A stretch of 53,115 nucleotides of DNA from an uncultured Acetatifactor sp. (lineage in GTDB: Bacteria; Bacillota; Clostridia; Lachnospirales; Lachnospiraceae): the NCBI GenBank assembly GCA_934436245.1, contig CAKSAM010000016.1, positions 1 through 53,115 on the forward strand, read 5' to 3'. This document shows positions 13,511 through 44,025 of the stretch, piece by piece. A model generated the notes under the pieces. It was not told the DNA's origin. It saw only the letters and a list, made by a program, of their open reading frames with translations, and searched no databases. How positions within the stretch are numbered: the first letter of the stretch is position 1; each line of letters starts with the position of its first letter. The translations under genes and the position numbers were made by a program.

Positions 13511-13861
13511 TTACCGCCGGATGAGTTTGTTTTCTTTGCAGGGCGGTAAAATGCGAGCAGCCAGGCGGAATAGAAAACGATTTTTACCGCCTGAATGCCA
13601 TTATGAGACCCAGAGGCGGTAAATTAGGCACAGCTAGGCGGAATAGAAGACGATTTTTACCGCCTGAATGCCATTATGAGACCCGGAGGCGGTAAATTAG
13701 GCACAGCCAGGCGGAATAGAAGACGATTTTTACCGCCTGAATGCCATTATGAGACCCGGAGGCGGTAAATTAGGCACAGCCAGGCGGAATAGAAGACGAT
13801 TTTTACCGCCTGAGTGCCATTATGAGACCCAGAGGCGGTAAATTAGGTACAGCCAGACGAT
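13511..13861. repeat. Tandem array of 73-bp hairpin units (about five copies)
   Basis: Fills nearly all of the 381-bp gap between cobD and cbiC. Units begin TTTTTACCGC at 13581, 13654, 13727 and 13800, exactly 73 bp apart and almost identical. A diverged 70-bp unit begins at 13511. Each unit contains the inverted repeat TTTACCGCCT ... AGGCGGTAAA with a 21-base loop, plus an extra AGGCGG in the linker, so each CCGCCT could pair with either of two partners. No open frame runs through it in phase with the flanking genes. There are no distinct spacers, so it is not a CRISPR. Confidence 0.95.
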
Positions 13862-13889
13862 GGAAGATAAATTTTGGGGGAAATGATTT

Positions 13890-14543
13890 ATGGAAAAAAA
13901 GAACATCGAATATGTATTGCCGGAAGAGATTGAGAAGCGTAGCTTTGCAATCATTGCCGCAGAACTGGCAGAGCGGGGCATCATCCTGCCTTTGGAGCAG
14001 GATATGATCACCAGACGGGTGATCCATACCAGTGCGGATTTCGATTATGCGGAGACGATGACCTATTCGGAAAATGCAGTGGAGATTGCCAAAAAACTGA
14101 TAAAAAACGGTGCGGACATCGTGACGGATACTAATATGGCACTGGCAGGGATCAATAAAAAGGTGCTGGCTTCTTTTGGCGGCGAAGCGCATTGCTACAT
14201 GGCAGACGCAGAGGTGGCGGCCATGGCAAAGGAGCGGAAGACCACCCGGGCAGCCATCAGCATGGAACTGGCTTCTAAACGGGAAAAGCCGGTGATCTTC
14301 GCCGTGGGAAATGCCCCTACGGCGTTGATACAGATCTATGAGATGATGCAGGAGAGCGACTGGCGCCCGGCATTCGTCATCGGGGTACCCGTGGGCTTCG
14401 TGAATGTGGAAGCCGCCAAGGAACTGATCCTTCAGACGGATGTGCCCTATATCATCAACCGGGGAAGAAAGGGAGGCAGTAATGTGGCGGCGGCCATTTG
14501 CAATGCCCTGTTGTATGAGTTGCGGAAAGAACGGCTCCAATAA
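13890..14543 (+). CDS. cbiC: Cobalt-precorrin-8 methylmutase CbiC
   Basis: Moves the C-11 methyl group to C-12, giving cobyrinate. It has 217 residues, with HTSADFDYAETM containing the catalytic His near 47, ADIVTDTNMALAGINK, FAVGNAPTAL and VIGVPVGFVNVEAAKE, all strong CbiC signatures. GGGGGA lies eight bases before the ATG, immediately after the hairpin array, so the array forms the untranslated leader between cobD and cbiC. Confidence 0.95.
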   Translation: MEKKNIEYVLPEEIEKRSFAIIAAELAERGIILPLEQDMITRRVIHTSADFDYAETMTYSENAVEIAKKLIKNGADIVTDTNMALAGINKKVLASFGGEAHCYMADAEVAAMAKERKTTRAAISMELASKREKPVIFAVGNAPTALIQIYEMMQESDWRPAFVIGVPVGFVNVEAAKELILQTDVPYIINRGRKGGSNVAAAICNALLYELRKERLQ

Positions 14544-24841: not shown

Positions 24842-27800
24842 TTGAGAAAGATTAAAGAAGAAACCATTCATACACTGGCACGCATCGGACGAAAGTATCG
24901 TCTACTTCGGTATCCGATTCTGGCAGTATTGGTGATATTTGTATTTATTTATAATGTGTTATTATATGGATTTATCCATTTTAAGATGCGGGAGCGTCTG
25001 GCCAGAGGACTGGCAATGGCGATGACTGTGGTGCTGGTATTTACCAGTGTGGATCTGACGGTATTGGCAATGTCCGCAGATCCTGTGCAGACAGAGAACT
25101 ACGAAGAGGAGGGGGAAGATAATTCGGATTCGGTGAAGGCACCGGAAGAGTCTGCCAACCCGGAGACAAGCGCAGCCCCGGGAGAATCTGCAGATCCTGA
25201 AGAGAGCATGTCGCCGGAAACAACAGCAGAACCCGAGGCAACTCCGGCACCGGGGATGACAGTATCCGATGGCAATGCACAGGTACTTTCAGAGAACGTA
25301 GTAATTTTGCAACAGCGGATCAATGCACTGCCTACGGTGGAAGAATTCATTGCCATGGCAGACGGTACTTATGTGGAAGACAGTCTGTGGAATGAAGCAC
25401 AGATGAAGATTTATTATGAAATGCAGGATATCGCAGACATCTATGACAGCCTGACGGAAGAAGAACAGGCTATGATAGATGTTACGAAGATGATGGAGTT
25501 GTTTGAGTATATTAATTCCGCCGTGATGCCGTTAGCAGATGGAAATTATGAGCCAATCACCATTTCTGAGGACTCTTTAACTGGAAACGCTATCTGGGGA
25601 GCATCGGAGACAAAAGATTCTAGGATTGCAATGGATGATCATGCATGCTTTTATGCGGCATCGAGATGTAACGATGGTGGATTGCCTGTGGATGGAAAAT
25701 TGGCAGTGAATGAGGTGCCTTATCAGCTTGCAGCGGGAGATGATGCAAGCAAGGCGTATGATGGTAAAGATTGTATCCGGTTGACTGTGTCTGAACGAAC
25801 GAATACGATGAATCTGGAAACAATCGGTGTATATAATAATATTTATGTGCTTGCTACAGCAGGTGGACCGGGAGAGGGTAACTATGCGGATTTTGGTGTT
25901 ACTTTGCATTATACAGATGGATTTACAGCAGAGACTACTTATCGATTATACGATTGGTATGATTTGACGGACATCCCAGGGGTAGAAAAATATTATAATG
26001 TTAAGAGAATGAACATAGATTCGTCAACAACCTTGGATGGAACTACGGGAACCACAGGTGGACCAGTGATTCATTCTGCAGCTATTAATGTAAACAGTAA
26101 CAAATTATTACAGTCTATTACTTTCACTATGAGAGGAAAAAATGGAGATGCAAGTGATATGTCTGGTTTGTACTGCTGCATCTTTGCCGTTACCGGCGCT
26201 ACCCCGGCGGGCGTACCGGAAGCACCGGTGGCAACACGGGCAAGTAAGCAAGAAGGAGATATTTCCGGTGCATTTACAGCTAACTGGAATTCGGTCGCTG
26301 ATGCTACCGGCTATCGCCTTGATGTAGCTACGGATCGTCAGTTTAAAAACATGGTAGCAAATTGCAATAATAAAGATATAGGCATGGCGGCTCAATACAA
26401 GGTATCCGGTAACGATATCAAGAATGATACGGTATATTATTACAGAGTCCGGGCTTATAATACAAATGGTCAGAGCCTCAGTTCCAACCGTGTGGCTACG
26501 GATCTGCCGAAGTGGATCAAGAATGCATTGAAGGAAGCGGATTACGATAGCGTAAGCTATGATGCCGAGACCAATACGGTAACATTTAACCGAGATGTCA
26601 TTTTAAAGGACACCATACAGATCCCGGGAGAAGATTCCACCGTAATTGCCTTAAACGGTAACACGGTGACTGCTCCCACAGGAAAATCTGCAATTTCTGC
26701 GAACGGAAAAAATACAGAACTTACTATAAATGGAACAAGCTCCGATGGAAAGAAAGGCAGCATTGTCGGAAGTACCGGAAGTGACGGAAACGGAGTGGCA
26801 GCCATTGATTTCGGTAGTGCCGGGGCAAATAGCACAATTACGGTGTCCGGAAGTGAGATCAGGGGCGGCGATGGTGTCGGAAGTACGGATGGCACAACAA
26901 CAGGAAATGCAGGAAATGGTGGTGCCGGTATTATCGCCGGTTCCGACAGCAATGTTAAAGTAGAAACCAATGCAACGGTGACCGGAGGAAACGGCGGCAG
27001 CACTTCCAACGGAACCGGAGGAAACGGCGGTGCAGGTATCAGCGGCGGTAAGGTATCTGTATCACAAAACGGAAATGTCAACGGAGGCAATGGTGGCAGC
27101 TCTGCAAACGGAACCGGAGGAAACGGCGGTACCGGTATCAACAGCGGAAGCAGCATAGCCAACAGCGGAAGTGTCAGTGGAGGAAATGGCGGTAACGGAA
27201 CCGAAGCCGGAGGAACTGCCGGTGAAACGAACAGTGGCAGCGGCACTATGACCGGTGGCGGTAGTACCACTACTGGTAAACCCGGAAAAAAACCGCAGAT
27301 GGGTATCTTGTCGATGAACGGCTATACCTATGGAGATATCGTCAGTCAACCGTCAGTCACCGGCATGCATGGGAAACCACAGATTACCTATTACTACAAT
27401 CAGACAGGTGATAATACAGACGGAACAAAATGGGAAGACATTACACCGACTACATTGAATGCCGGGGATTATTATTCATATGCGGTATTAGATGAAACGG
27501 ATGAATATCCGGGATACACTACGGCTGCTGTAAAATTTACGGTAGGCAGACGGATAATTACCGACGGCAAGGTTAACATCAAATTTGATGAGAATGGTAA
27601 TATCAAAGTGACGGTTGAGGATTCTATGCCGGATGGCAATAAGACATTGACGGAAGGAACAGATTATACGGTAGAGAAAACGGAGACAACATCCGATGAG
27701 ACCTTTGTGATCAAAGGATCGGGAAATTACCAATTTGAGATTACAAAGAAAGTTTCCAAGCCGGAATGGAAGGAAAACGATAAGAAAAAAACAGCAACGA

Positions 27801-33144: not shown

Positions 33145-33356
33145 AAGAAAGTATATATGATGTCGGGGTCAAAAGCCCCCGACTTTGATACCTACGGATT
33201 GCTTCGTGCTACGCACTACCACAATCCGACCCAATATTCGCATATCGTGGGATTATCATCCCACTTTTATGCTCATATCGGGGTGGGTCCCAAGGTCTTT
33301 CACCCACTTATGAGCAAGCTCATGTGGGTTTAGACCTTTTGACCCTGGTATCATAT
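33115..33356. repeat. Composite palindromic element (modules B and A, reverse orientation)
   Basis: Fills the 322-bp gap before citrate synthase. Four hairpins in series: GACATC...TACTTTCT/AGAAAGTA...GATGTC (about 33117-33164); module B (about 33155-33232); GTGGGAT/ATCCCAC near 33246-33262; and module A (about 33287-33350) with its GCTTGC-type cap. Modules A and B match 2283-2346 and 3570-3647 in reverse complement. A 72-codon open frame over it is not credible. Confidence 0.85.
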
Positions 33357-33387: not shown

Positions 33388-34734
33388 ATGAAGAAAAACG
33401 AAGAGTATATGTTGGAACACGCCGGACTGTGCAGAGCTGCAGACAGATTGGAACCCCAGATGTTCGACGAATATGGCGTACAGAGGGGACTTCGTGATAA
33501 GAATGGTAACGGCGTAGTCGCAGGCCTTACCAATATTTCACGGATCGAATCCTTTAAAATGGAAGATGGCAAAAAAGTTCCCTGTGAAGGTAGGCTGTGG
33601 TATCGTGGCTATGACTGTATTGAACTGGTCAATGGTTTCAGGGGAGACCATTTTGGATTTGAGGAAGTGGCTTATTTACTTCTGTTCGGTAAGCTGCCGA
33701 ACCGTGAGGAGCTGAAGCACTTTAATGATATTCTTGCGTCCAGCAGAACTCTGCCAACTAACTTCACCAGAGATGTCATTATGAAAGCCCCCAGCAGTGA
33801 CATTATGAATTCACTGACCAGGAGCGTTCTGACACTTGCTTCCTATGATAAAAACTGCAGCGATACATCCATTGAAAATGTTTTAAGACAGAGTCTGGGA
33901 CTGATTGCTGTGTTCCCCATGCTGGCAGTTTATGGCTACCATGCCTATAATCACTATTCTAACGATGAGAGCATGTACATACACCGTCCCCAGAAGAAGC
34001 TTTCCACTGCAGAGAATCTGCTGATGATGCTTCGCCCGGACAAAATGTATACCGAATTGGAGGCGAGAGTACTGGATACTGCACTGGTGCTGCATATGGA
34101 GCACGGCGGCGGTAACAACTCCACTTTTACCACCAGAGTCGTGACCTCTTCCGGCTCCGATACCTATTCCGTTATTGCAGCAGCACTTTCTTCCCTGAAG
34201 GGACCCAAACACGGCGGTGCCAATATTAAAGTCGTAGAGATGATGCGGAATATCGAGGCACATGTGTCTGACTGGACGGATGAGGATGCGGTAAGAGCGT
34301 ACCTGAACAAGATATTAAGCAAAGAAGCCTTCGATGGCAAGGGACTGATCTATGGTATGGGTCATGCGGTCTACTCGCTGTCTGACCCCAGAGCCCAGGT
34401 GTTTAAGAGCTTTGTGGAAAAGCTGGCGGTAGCCAAGGGCAGAGACAAGGATTTTGCTCTGTATTCCATGATCGAGCGGATCGCACCGGAGGTCATTTCC
34501 CAGAAATCCAGAATTTACAAGGGTGTCAGTGCTAACGTGGATTTCTACAGCGGATTCGTATACAGCATGCTGGAGATTCCGCTGGAGCTGTATACCCCGA
34601 TCTTCGCCATTGCCAGAATCGTAGGATGGAGTGCACACCGCATTGAAGAGCTGATCAATATGGATAAGATCATCCGCCCCGCTTACAAGAGTGTGATGCA
34701 GGAACTGGAATATGTTCCTCTGGATCAGAGATAA
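33388..34734 (+). CDS. Citrate synthase
   Basis: Condenses oxaloacetate and acetyl-CoA. It is 448 residues with a longer N-terminal region than the short bacterial type, as in related clostridia. Catalytic landmarks are MEHGGGNNSTFTTRVV (first His), LKGPKHGGANIKVVEMM (second His) and GKGLIYGMGHAVYSLSDPRAQ (third His region), with the Asp/Arg part near VSANVDFYSGFVY. GGAAGG lies upstream of the ATG. It is transcribed from the palindromic leader and stops just before a bidirectional terminator. No aconitase or isocitrate dehydrogenase gene is adjacent. Confidence 0.94.
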   Translation: MKKNEEYMLEHAGLCRAADRLEPQMFDEYGVQRGLRDKNGNGVVAGLTNISRIESFKMEDGKKVPCEGRLWYRGYDCIELVNGFRGDHFGFEEVAYLLLFGKLPNREELKHFNDILASSRTLPTNFTRDVIMKAPSSDIMNSLTRSVLTLASYDKNCSDTSIENVLRQSLGLIAVFPMLAVYGYHAYNHYSNDESMYIHRPQKKLSTAENLLMMLRPDKMYTELEARVLDTALVLHMEHGGGNNSTFTTRVVTSSGSDTYSVIAAALSSLKGPKHGGANIKVVEMMRNIEAHVSDWTDEDAVRAYLNKILSKEAFDGKGLIYGMGHAVYSLSDPRAQVFKSFVEKLAVAKGRDKDFALYSMIERIAPEVISQKSRIYKGVSANVDFYSGFVYSMLEIPLELYTPIFAIARIVGWSAHRIEELINMDKIIRPAYKSVMQELEYVPLDQR

Positions 34735-37347: not shown

Positions 37348-38058
37348 ATGGAGGAATTGGCATCAGAACTGCTCAAGGAGCTGAACTGTGATACGGCATT
37401 TTCCATCAAGCTTCCGGCAGGTCTTCCCCTGATCGGCGGAGTACAGCTGGATATTGCAGAATCAGTCGTTATCACCTGGGTCGTCATGGCAGTGATTCTG
37501 ATATTGTCGATCATCCTTACAAGCAACCTCAAAGTACACAATGTCAGCAGACGACAGCTGGTGGCAGAGACGATCGTGACAAAGCTGGAAGGCATAGTTA
37601 CGGGAATGATCGGAGAGGAAGGCAGACGGTATGTACCATATCTGGTAAGTGTACTGTTATACCTGGGCATATCCAATATCATCGGATTGTTCGGCATGAA
37701 GCCCCCTACCAAGGATCTGAACGTAACGGCGGCACTGGCACTGATGAGTATCATCCTGGTGGAAGCTGCAGGCATCCGCAAAAAAGGTGTGGGCGGATGG
37801 ATCAAAAGCTTTACCGAGCCTATTGCGATCGTAACACCTATCAATATCCTGGAGGTGTTCATCAAGCCCCTGTCCCTGTGTATGCGATTGTTTGGTAACG
37901 TTTTGGGAGCATTCGTTATCATGGAGCTGTTGAAGCTCCTGGTTCCGGTAGCATTGCCGGTACCCTTCAGCTTTTACTTTGATATTTTTGATGGACTGAT
38001 CCAGGCATACGTATTTGTATTCCTGACATCGATGTACATTAAGGAAGCTATTGAGTAA
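37348..38058 (+). CDS. atpB: F0 ATP synthase subunit a
   Basis: 236 residues with five to six hydrophobic helices. The key segment IKPLSLCMRLFGNVLGAFVIM carries the essential Arg of the proton half-channels. The last helices (FDGLIQAYVFVFLTSMYIKE) complete the family pattern. It opens the operon; no atpI precedes it. GGAAAGGAAG lies before the ATG. Confidence 0.95.
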   Translation: MEELASELLKELNCDTAFSIKLPAGLPLIGGVQLDIAESVVITWVVMAVILILSIILTSNLKVHNVSRRQLVAETIVTKLEGIVTGMIGEEGRRYVPYLVSVLLYLGISNIIGLFGMKPPTKDLNVTAALALMSIILVEAAGIRKKGVGGWIKSFTEPIAIVTPINILEVFIKPLSLCMRLFGNVLGAFVIMELLKLLVPVALPVPFSFYFDIFDGLIQAYVFVFLTSMYIKEAIE

Positions 38059-38199: not shown

Positions 38200-38415
38200 A
38201 TGATAGCTATTGGAGCAGGTATTGCAGCACTGGCATGTATCGGAGCAGGTATCGGTATCGGTATCGCAACAAGTAAGGCAGCAGAGGCTGTGGCAAGACA
38301 GCCGGAAGCAGAGAGCAAGATCACCAAGATCTTACTGTTAGGTGGTGCGCTGGCAGAGGCAACCGCTATTTACGGATTCGTTATCGGTATCCTGATCATT
38401 CTGTTCATGGCATAA
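38200..38415 (+). CDS. atpE: F0 ATP synthase subunit c
   Basis: 71 residues, two hydrophobic helices joined by the polar loop ARQPEA. The ion-binding carboxylate is in [12 protein letters not shown]. In Na+ enzymes this helix reads AESTxIY with a Gln in the first helix (GQG); here the Ser is Ala and the Gln position is Ile (GIGIGIA), so H+ coupling is inferred. A strong TAGGAGG lies upstream of the ATG. Confidence 0.95.
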
Positions 38416-38644: not shown

Positions 38645-39133
38645 ATGCTGAGATTAGATATTAATATTGTATGGACCATCCTGAATCTGTTGATCATCTT
38701 CGCTATCGTGAAGATCTTTCTGATCAAGCCCATCCACAAGATACTGGATGCAAGACAGGCTGAGATCGACAAGCAATATGCAGATGCCAAAGCGGCACAG
38801 GACAGTGCCGATGAGTTGAAGAGTCAGTACGAGGCATCCTTAAGCGGTGTCCAGGCAGAAAAGGAAGGCATCCTGAACGAAGCAAGAAGCAAGGCCGGCA
38901 ACGAGTATGACCGTATTGTGGCAGATGCCCAGACCGAGGCAAAAAAGATCCTGGACAATGCCGACAAAAATGCCGCACTGGAAGAGCAGAAGCGTATTCA
39001 GCAGGCACAGGAGCAGATCGCCGGTCTGGTAGTGGAAGCTACCGCAAAGCTGGTGGCTGCCAGTCAGAACGCAGATTCAGACAGAGAACTTTACAACCAA
39101 TTTATAGCAAAGACAGGTGAAAAGATTGATTAG
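38645..39133 (+). CDS. atpF: F0 ATP synthase subunit b
   Basis: 162 residues: one N-terminal membrane helix (about 8-27, [19 protein letters not shown]) followed by a long Ala/Gln/Glu-rich helix typical of the b-dimer stator stalk. AGAAAGGATG lies upstream of the ATG. Its end overlaps the start of the delta-alpha gene, in the normal operon position. Confidence 0.94.
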
Positions 39134-41141
39134 TACAGCTTTAGAATACGCAAAAAGATTGCGTGAACTGAATATCCCCGGAGACATTGTAGGTCAGACA
39201 GGCGATATCTTCAAAGCCGTACCGCAGGTGAAACTGGATTTCGAATCCCCTGCTGTGTCACTGTCTGCCAAACACAATGTAATAGAAAAAGTATTCCCCT
39301 TACAGATCAGAGATTTTCTGAAGGTCCTGTGTGATAACGGAGATATCTATCTGTGGGATGATATCTGCACTGCGTATAGAGAACTCTCTCCCGAGAAAAA
39401 GGGTGAGTTCGTCGTGACCCTGTCCTATGTGACAGCACCGACAGAGGAGCAGTTACAGAATATCCGTGATTTTGTACAGAAGAAATATCACAGAGACGAT
39501 ATGGTCTTCGAGACGAAGGAAGACCCGGCTCTGGGCGGCGGTTTCATCGTCCGTGCCGGTAACGAAGTCTATGACTGGAGTACCAATGGCCGTATGAAGC
39601 AGTTCGCAGACAAGCTTTCCCAGGTAGGCAAGACTGCCAGCGAGCAGGGGATCATCTCTATCCTGAAGGGTGAGATCGAAGATTTCCACCTGCAGGCACA
39701 GGAGCATGAGATCGGTTCCGTCAGCTGGGTAGGTGATGGTATCGCCAATGTCAATGGTATCGACCATGCCGAGTATGGTGAGATCGTTATCTTCGATTCC
39801 GGTGTCAAGGGAATGGTACAGGATGTCCGCAGGGATGAGATCGGATGTATCCTGTTCGGTCATGATACCGAGATCCGTGAGGGTACCAGAGTGGTACGTA
39901 CCGGTAAGAGAGCCGGTATCCCAGTAGGTGACGGATTTAAGGGCAGGATCGTGGATGCTCTGGGAGCACCCATCGACGGCGCAGGTCCCATTAAGGAAGA
40001 GGGGTATCGTCCCATCGAGCAGCCTGCTCCTTCCATCGTAGACAGACAGTCCGTAGGTGTACCTATGGAAACCGGTATCCTGGCAATCGATTCAATGTTC
40101 CCTATCGGTCGTGGACAGCGTGAGCTGATCATCGGTGACCGTCAGACCGGTAAGACTTCCATCGCCATCGACGCCATTCTGAACCAGAAGGGCAAGGATG
40201 TGGTATGTATCTATGTGGCCATCGGCCAGAAGGCATCCACCATTGCAAAACTGGTAGGAACCCTGAAGAAGAACGATGCCATGGATTACACCATTATCGT
40301 GTCCGCAACCGCCAGCGATCCTGCACCCCTGCAGTACATCGCACCTTATTCCGGTACGGCACTGGCTGAGTATTTCATGTATCAGGGCAAGGATGTCCTC
40401 ATCGTATACGATGATCTGTCCAAGCATGCGGTAGCTTACCGTGCACTGTCCCTGTTGTTGGAGCGTTCTCCCGGACGTGAGGCATATCCCGGAGATGTAT
40501 TCTACTTACATTCCAGACTGTTGGAGCGTTCCGCAAGACTGAGCGCAGACAAGGGTGGCGGTTCCATTACCGCACTGCCTATCATTGAGACCCAGGCAGG
40601 CGATGTATCCGCATACATTCCGACCAACGTTATCTCCATCACTGACGGTCAGATCTTCCTGGAGAGTGATCTGTTCTTCTCCGGTATGAGACCTGCAGTC
40701 AATGTCGGTCTGTCCGTATCCCGTGTCGGCGGTGCCGCACAGACGAAGGCAATGAAGAAGGCAGCCGGAAGTATCCGTATCGACCTGGCACAGTTCCGTG
40801 AGATGGAAGTGTTCACACAGTTCGCATCCGATCTGGACAATGCCACCAAGGAGCAGTTACAGCATGGTCATGTACTGATGGAGCTGTTAAAGCAGCCGCT
40901 GTGCAGACCTTTAAGCATGGCAGAACAGGTTATGACCCTGTGCGCAGCCAACGGCAGAGTAATGCTGGATGTGCCCGTAGATCAGGTGAAGGATTTCCAG
41001 ATGCAGTTCTTAAGCTACATGAAGGAGCAGCACAGCGATATCGTTCGTCAGTTAGAGACTACCAAGGCTCTGGATGACGAGCTGAACAAGCAGATCTGTG
41101 ATGCAGCAACAGAATTTAAAAAGGAATTTTTACAGAAATAA
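39126..41141 (+). CDS. atpHA: F1 ATP synthase delta-alpha fusion
   Basis: One continuous frame of about 671 residues. Residues 1 to about 165 are the delta/OSCP subunit: [10 protein letters not shown] at the N-terminus, [20 protein letters not shown] in the middle, and the diagnostic [20 protein letters not shown] end. From about 170 the whole alpha subunit follows: [11 protein letters not shown], the [17 protein letters not shown] barrel, the P-loop [13 protein letters not shown] (near 337) and [27 protein letters not shown]. About 497 alpha residues remain, so both modules are full length. The start is TTG 39126 (AGGTG six bases upstream) or GTG 39117. An in-frame ATG at 39594 with GGAG 13 bases upstream could give separate alpha. 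The expected alpha3:delta1 stoichiometry makes this unusual. Confidence 0.93.
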
Positions 41142-41252: not shown

Positions 41253-43591
<2,339 letters not shown>

Positions 43592-43608
43592 GGAAAGGCG
43601 GTGTGCAT

Positions 43609-44025
43609 ATGAACACCTTTAGTTTGAAGGTCATTGCCAGTGATAAAGTATTTTTCGATGGAAAATGCGGCATTATTATCGTACCTGCCCTGGACGGTGA
43701 GCAGGCCATTATGTCTCACCACGAGGATATGGTCATTGCCACGAGAGAGGGCGAGGTACGCTTCAAGGAAAAAGAGGATGATGACTGGACCAAAGCCGTA
43801 GTCGGTGTGGGCTGTGTCTACATTTCCCATAACCGTGTGATCATGCTGGTGGATACGGCAGAACGCCCGGAGGATATCGACAGGGTCCGTGCGGAGGCTG
43901 CCCTGGAGCGTGCGAAGGAACAGCTGCGTCAGAAGCAGAGTATCCAGGAGTATCATGTATCCCAGGCATCCATGGCGAGAGCAATGCTGCGCCTGAAGGA
44001 AGCCGGAAAATACGAAGTCAAATAA
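43609..44025 (+). CDS. atpC: F1 ATP synthase subunit epsilon
   Basis: 138 residues: N-terminal beta-sandwich (FSLKVIASDKVFFDGK; IIVPALDGEQAIMSHHEDMV) and a two-helix C-terminal domain (DRVRAEAALERAKEQLRQ). ATG 43609 has AAGGAAAGG about 9 bases upstream. It closes the operon. No strong terminator follows; the next gene has its own promoter. Confidence 0.94.
   Translation: MNTFSLKVIASDKVFFDGKCGIIIVPALDGEQAIMSHHEDMVIATREGEVRFKEKEDDDWTKAVVGVGCVYISHNRVIMLVDTAERPEDIDRVRAEAALERAKEQLRQKQSIQEYHVSQASMARAMLRLKEAGKYEVK

Follow-up and report, generated by a model that had tools for sequence, protein, structure and literature searches.

In the engineered FoF1 of Bacillus PS3, a delta subunit without its N-terminal domain was fused to alpha (deltaDeltaN-alpha); up to three peripheral stalks were observed by cryo-electron microscopy (cryo-EM; structure 9JC1), subunits a and b were about doubled, the H+/ATP ratio was 5.8 compared to 3.0, and ATP was synthesized at low force (Ueno et al. 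2025, PMC12229609; this and the other papers are cited from excerpts). The same work names natural deltaDeltaN-alpha cases (Acidaminococcus fermentans; UniProt G4Q3K6, A0A1I2C5T3), predicts a multi-stalk enzyme for A. fermentans, and proposes that the ion/ATP ratio varies through stalk number; the multi-stalk idea for natural deltaDeltaN-alpha enzymes is that of Ueno et al. and already known. Elsewhere, delta is joined to b in Gordonia and Mycobacterium, and the N-ATPase operon (beta-epsilon-a-c-b-alpha-gamma, without delta) occurs as a second F-type operon beside the ordinary one (PMC5709465). Here we describe, in a 53,115-nucleotide stretch of DNA from an uncultured Acetatifactor sp. (contig CAKSAM010000016.1, hereafter the window), a gene in which a full-length delta, N-terminal domain included, is fused to a complete alpha subunit.

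As in 9JC1, the C terminus of delta is joined to the N terminus of alpha by a short linker in the window protein: chain I of 9JC1 aligned to its residues 103-671 across the junction with zero net length change over 569 residues, and the natural and engineered linker lengths agree within 1-2 residues. Unlike 9JC1, the window protein has a delta N-terminal domain (OSCP from residue 22, six predicted helices). The same domain sets it apart from the A. fermentans gene, also a natural delta-alpha fusion, which lacks it according to its published description (PMC12229609). The mycobacterial-type b-delta fusion is likewise a stator fusion involving delta, but in the window b occupies its own frame of 162 aa, with its end at 39133, and this rules out that identity; the N-ATPase is ruled out by the window gene order and by the delta domain.

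The first-pass annotation of the window knew of no characterized delta-alpha fusion; an engineered one has the structure 9JC1, and we found no characterized natural one. In the full-text literature, excluding subscription papers and preprints, the delta-alpha fusion was treated only in PMC12229609, as far as its excerpts go, and we found no report describing the full-length form, three or four origins of the fusion, N-terminal domain loss that recurs in fused loci alone or a b-delta-alpha triple fusion. The excerpts of PMC5709465 on the b-delta fusion do not show a delta-alpha fusion, and those of PMC4478896, which report an F-ATPase in butyrivibrios, do not mention one.

One frame encodes delta and alpha

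The window operon has the order a-c-b-[delta-alpha]-gamma-beta-epsilon. All eight F1Fo subunits (a, c, b, delta, alpha, gamma, beta and epsilon) were recognized with Pfam, delta and alpha as one protein:

37348..38058, + strand: atpB, subunit a, 236 aa (Pfam ATP-synt_A)
38200..38415, + strand: atpE, subunit c, 71 aa (Pfam ATP-synt_C)
38645..39133, + strand: atpF, subunit b, 162 aa (Pfam ATP-synt_B)
39126..41141, + strand: delta-alpha fusion gene, start TTG 39126, with GTG 39117 as the other in-frame start of the open reading frame
39129..39392, + strand: delta N-terminal six-helix domain, approximate limits (Pfam, AlphaFold helices, omega)
39408..39620, + strand: delta C-terminal domain, which binds b in other ATP synthases; limits approximate (Pfam; alignment to 9JC1 chain I)
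39594..39596, + strand: in-frame ATG, internal start candidate of the first-pass annotation
39621..39647, + strand: delta-alpha linker of about 9 residues, variable in relatives, matching the engineered linker length, with low predicted local distance difference test (pLDDT) scores
39648..41138, + strand: complete alpha subunit with Walker A motif GDRQTGKT
41253..42182, + strand: atpG, gamma, 309 aa (Pfam)
42179..43591, + strand: atpD, beta, 470 aa (Pfam)
43603..44025, + strand: atpC, epsilon, 140 aa (Pfam)

No stop codon interrupts the fusion frame between 39108 and the terminal stop at 41139-41141. Read from GTG 39117 to 41141, the frame matched OSCP at residues 22-167 (E = 2e-25) and three alpha domains within residues 198-667, bearing out the first-pass claim that a complete delta (OSCP) module runs uninterrupted into a complete alpha. 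The product is predicted to be one polypeptide serving as delta and alpha. Separate delta and alpha chains, which the F-type norm combines as one delta to three alphas, are not encoded by the window genes, where both lie in one frame.

TTG 39126 is the likelier start codon, with AGGT 7 nt upstream, whereas GTG 39117 lacks such a motif; a GTG or TTG is conserved at the 39126 position in close relatives (GTG in the two relatives L003 and L004). The b gene ends, with its stop codon at 39131-39133, inside the beginning of the fusion gene. In the 39117 frame, AlphaFold predicted helices between residues 2 and 89, with blocks in residues 11-90 at pLDDT 80-89, and gave pLDDT below 50 at residues 170-196, the linker region. 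The model was built from 34 sequences and offers no basis for a domain arrangement: its mean pLDDT was 59.9 and alpha was poorly modeled, and structure comparison matched alpha chains at a root-mean-square deviation of about 20 Å and left the delta part outside the match.

Independent genomes carry the full-length fusion

The first-pass annotation regarded the fusion as natural and suggested looking for the same frame in related genomes. We found it in independent assemblies. The complete genome of Lachnospiraceae bacterium GAM79, among the 8 loci that matched in the first genome scan, encodes a protein 97% identical over residues 1-674, and 30 other genomes also carry the full-length form, making 31 genomes with full fusions besides the window in a set of 117 loci. 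A sequencing error at the junction is ruled out by these genomes.

Matches at E<=1e-150 were present in 322 of the 397 genomes of GAM79's family, and the lineage was found in 42 of 391 genomes drawn from the class (E<=1e-205). A protein search with the delta part, limited to proteins 0.55-1.75 times the query length, returned 317 homologous proteins, and a more distant query returned 724; with each query, 120 of 120 proteins among the matches listed have OSCP together with ATP-synt_ab. A plasmid search found distant deltas only. As judged from the genes, ATP synthases with delta built into alpha occur in many gut Lachnospiraceae.

Three states of delta among relatives

We classified 117 loci (the window, L002-L006, L008 and L017-L126) by reading frame and delta profile. 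From the matches listed, the 30 best were taken as loci and 80 more were picked by eye; the latter include nearly every listed fusion and part of the unfused loci, so that the full and deltaDeltaN types are not random samples. The set comprises 37 unfused loci, 32 full fusions and 48 loci with only the delta C-terminal domain joined to alpha (deltaDeltaN, to which L085 was assigned by hand). The number of residues upstream of the alpha core falls into three groups (7-45, 77-141 and 175-203), and two longer frames are open upstream of it, at 196 in L041 and at 280 in L085. The delta N-terminal domain is missing in 48 of 80 fused loci compared to 0 of 37 unfused loci. The deltaDeltaN loci share the architecture of 9JC1 and are near it in size (median frame of 598 aa against a chain of 580 aa), and in L006-L008 the deltaDeltaN frame begins directly after the b stop, leaving no space for an N-terminal domain. 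Linkers of full fusions are short and variable among relatives.

All 37 unfused loci have a separate two-domain delta directly upstream of alpha. In 8 of them delta and alpha are in-frame and at most 12 nt apart, and in 7 of these 8 the delta stop is the sole separator, so that loss of this stop codon would create a fusion.

One locus goes further. In L085 (G075:C33:102128-104488), b, the delta C-terminal domain and alpha lie in one 787-aa frame, whereas the Gordonia and Mycobacterium fusion joins only b and delta (PMC5709465). A cluster of 781-aa proteins (P0124; 34 sequences, 5 contigs, among the best 7,997 candidates scored) is 97% identical to it. Genome G075 has one OSCP match, one alpha and no other b above the Pfam cut-off, with two weak matches below it. 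In an F1 of this type, three alphas are expected to bring three b chains, with no b dimer on each.

Origins of the fusion and losses of the N-terminal domain

Three alpha trees were compared. The 125-row tree holds the 117 loci and 8 canonical alphas. The 92-row tree (LG+G4, first 25 columns removed, bootstrap not settled) includes 15 of the 37 unfused loci and leaves out L008, L002, L017 and the 8 canonical alphas. Before the 78-row tree, 20 loci were added (8 unfused, 6 full and 6 deltaDeltaN), and this tree contains 45 unfused, 19 of 38 full, 11 of 54 deltaDeltaN and 3 of 8 canonical rows.

In the 125-row tree, the window belongs to a clade of 13 rows (8 full, 5 deltaDeltaN; Shimodaira-Hasegawa-like approximate likelihood ratio test, SH-aLRT, 97), nested in a fused clade of 78 (94); the unfused rows are basal in the tree. 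Changes between fused and unfused states number 3 in the 125-row, 2 in the 92-row and 4 in the 78-row tree, where all four are forced by starred branches: the main clade, L131-L136 beside unfused L140 and L150, L053, and L085. We read these changes as gains of fusion because the canonical and basal rows are unfused. L131-L136 (G672, G596, G637, G419, G453 and G507; 679-aa frames) form a second full-length fusion lineage, classed as full by an upstream length of 175 since helix 1 was unaligned under the profile rule. Their nearest rows, L140 and L150, are unfused, and this position in the tree marks L131-L136 as an independent fusion. L085 falls within a deltaDeltaN clade in the 125-row tree (90) and beside unfused L141 in the 78-row tree (99/94), and the position of L063 also differs between trees. 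Three origins of the fusion are firm on these trees, while a fourth, L085, is unsure.

Among fused rows, parsimony gave 14 changes between full and deltaDeltaN in both the 125-row and the 92-row trees, and starred branches force at least 5 (125-row) or 9 (92-row; bootstrap 13-16, not settled). These counts carry no direction; we assume loss, as regain of the same domain is unlikely. If loss is irreversible, the N-terminal domain was lost 18 times. In the 125-row tree, these 18 losses fall on 13.9 units of domain-bearing fused branch and none falls on 10.8 unfused units, where 3.9 to 14 would be expected. The chance of zero unfused losses is 9e-7 with 18 losses, 9e-4 with 9 and 0.02 with 5, rough values given that the loci are non-random.

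Ordinary delta and alpha genes in the same genomes

All 8 genomes of the first scan encode elsewhere a separate delta of 182-192 aa with a higher Pfam score than the fused one; the fusion operon is therefore a second F-ATPase in these genomes. Among the 31 full-fusion genomes, a second delta was found in 23 and none in 8 (G057, G089, G229, G235, G243, G255, G327 and G332), and these 8 have no second alpha at E<=1e-150 among the three candidates scored in each genome. As most of the genomes are fragmented assemblies that come without completeness values, the missing second delta or alpha is provisional. Of the 48 deltaDeltaN genomes 35 were searched, and 14 have one OSCP match, with the weak E-value typical of the fusion and a position outside the matches listed, and one alpha; because at least one known deltaDeltaN (G191) escaped PF00213, OSCP counts are lower bounds for this type.

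Selection on the delta N-terminal domain

In near pairs (in wider ones the synonymous rate is saturated), the ratio of nonsynonymous to synonymous rates (omega) for the N-terminal domain was 0.09 between the window and L017, 0.03 between the window and L002, and 0.06 between L003 and L004. For the C-terminal domain it was 0.09 (window-L017) and 0.19 (window-L002). These values indicate that both delta domains are under purifying selection. Decay of the N-terminal domain in the window is ruled out by the low omega and by a conservation that matches that of unfused deltas.

Helix 1 of delta binds the N-termini of alpha. At positions 17, 19 and 21 of this helix (39108 frame), 34, 26 and 34 of the 37 unfused deltas have Val, Tyr and Leu, respectively, and full fusions are variable. 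Conversely, Arg68, Leu74, Asp76 and Asn77 are found in 31, 30, 28 and 24 of the 32 full fusions compared to 14, 14, 17 and 7 of the 37 unfused deltas. These patterns show a shift in the constraints on the N-terminal domain.

On the alpha side of the junction (window 39648-39680), Ser of the motif IISIL is replaced by Pro in 22 of 48 deltaDeltaN, 0 of 32 full and 0 of 37 unfused loci. Coevolution of this Pro with loss of the N-terminal domain was not significant (3-5 versus 0 independent pairs, p>=0.06).

The strong alpha start signal of unfused loci is missing from full fusions

In each of the 37 unfused loci, alpha begins at -7 to -9, and a Shine-Dalgarno-like motif of at least 4 nt accompanies this start; the motif reaches at least 5 nt in 32 of them. 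Over the corresponding 43-codon stretch of full fusions, a start with a motif of at least 4 nt within 12 nt was found in 10 of 32, compared to 189-196 of 640 controls; with spacing up to 15 nt, the figures were 16 of 32 and 38% of control windows. The first-pass annotation had pointed to ATG 39594, in frame with GGAG 13 nt upstream, as an internal start. The sequence is as described, and ATG occupies this position in 8 of the 32 full fusions, all eight keeping GGAG at 13 nt (the window, six close full-length relatives and L030). The GGAG bases fall in codons for Asp-Trp-Ser, common to 31 of the 32 full fusions. Internal initiation as a general mechanism is unlikely on these statistics, and what stands of the suggestion is the persistence of ATG and GGAG in the window clade.

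Proposed stoichiometry and alternatives

From a frame that is continuous and conserved, two delta domains that are both constrained and an alpha start signal that is gone, we infer three delta modules per F1, and we consider it on balance probable that the fused chain provides three such modules able to dock more than one stalk. Among the ways out that the first-pass annotation listed for the mismatch with the usual stoichiometry, three deltas per F1 fit best. Each alpha would carry one delta module. By analogy with PS3, each delta C-terminal domain could bind a b dimer together with the accompanying a subunit, and the enzyme could hold more than one peripheral stalk, raising the number of ions per ATP; a higher ion/ATP ratio would permit work at low ion-motive force beside the cell's ordinary ATP synthase. 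In the full-length form, at most one N-terminal domain would occupy the central dimple of F1 and the two others would lie elsewhere. The window form would then be an intermediate, and deletion of the N-terminal domain a further step. The domain would be dispensable once delta is present on every alpha, which fits its frequent loss in the Lachnospiraceae series.

Several observations weigh against several docked stalks or against three deltas per F1. The window operon has one a and one b gene, the delta N-terminal domain restricts the enzyme to one stalk according to Ueno et al. (PMC12229609), and the window retains this domain under purifying selection; at equal alpha identity, it is as conserved in full fusions as in unfused deltas. 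Moreover, starts with a motif of at least 5 nt show a small excess in full fusions (3 of 32 versus 14 of 640 controls), and 7 of the 8 full fusions of the window clade have ATG with GGAG at 13 nt (the eighth, L005, has CTG). The gene content, the one-stalk restriction and the constrained N-terminal domain favor an enzyme with three fused chains per F1 and a single functional stalk, in which one working delta occupies the dimple with its N-terminal domain and holds b2 with its C-terminal domain, the other two deltas are passengers, and the main effect of the fusion is to anchor delta on F1 or to tie delta synthesis to that of alpha. However, such an enzyme leaves the recurrent loss of the N-terminal domain, confined to fused loci, without explanation, and two displaced copies per enzyme would be wasteful; we consider it unlikely.

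The internal starts would instead favor free alpha produced from ATG 39594 or another internal start, one delta-alpha chain assembling with two alphas. This is improbable, as the strong signal of all unfused alphas is gone (10 of 32 against 30% of controls), ATG at the 39594 position is restricted to a quarter of full fusions, its GGAG coincides with conserved codons, and deltaDeltaN genomes with a single alpha show no sign of needing a free one. Cleavage of the fusion into delta and alpha after translation would suit a linker that is short, variable and predicted to be disordered, yet no conserved cleavage motif was visible by eye in the 32 full-fusion linkers, cleavage would still yield three deltas per F1, and deltaDeltaN forms keep the link after losing half of delta, making this very improbable. 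Finally, an artefact of sequencing or assembly, or a gene in decay, has a negligible probability: nothing in its favor was found for the window, the frame recurs in a complete genome and in many independent assemblies, and omega among near relatives is 0.02 for alpha and 0.03-0.09 for the N-terminal domain of delta. A delta spread over two frames does occur in the unfused relative L146 (G457:C97), where the N-terminal domain sequence is present, from an error or a broken gene.

For F-type enzymes, one stalk and one delta per F1 are taken as a constant. If a delta is present on every alpha, the ion/ATP ratio may vary with how many stalks and a subunits there are, and not with c-ring size alone. 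The 117 loci form an evolutionary series (separate, fused, without N-terminal domain, and with b also fused) with many independent steps, which makes the idea testable by comparing natural enzymes, some of them in hosts apparently without another F-ATPase. Tentatively, and with less confidence than in the three delta modules, we propose that Lachnospiraceae repeatedly evolved alpha-borne docks, giving natural two- or three-stalk, low-gear enzymes with a higher ion/ATP ratio beside the ordinary one; the window would represent an intermediate, the N-terminal domain would have been lost many times and one lineage would have added b. This may be relevant to the energy yield of gut fermenters, in which the ion-motive force may be low.

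Other features of the window

A search for direct repeats found only three families, all unrelated. At 13542-13906, a tandem direct repeat has a 73-nt step and copies 70-94% identical to the first, and at 26969-27147 two 80-nt copies, 99 nt apart, are 80% identical and would encode a Gly/Asn-rich repeat if in frame. A Clostridiales-1 RNA (RF01699, 148 bits) matched at 33186-33353 on the minus strand, upstream of a citrate-synthase-like frame at 33388.
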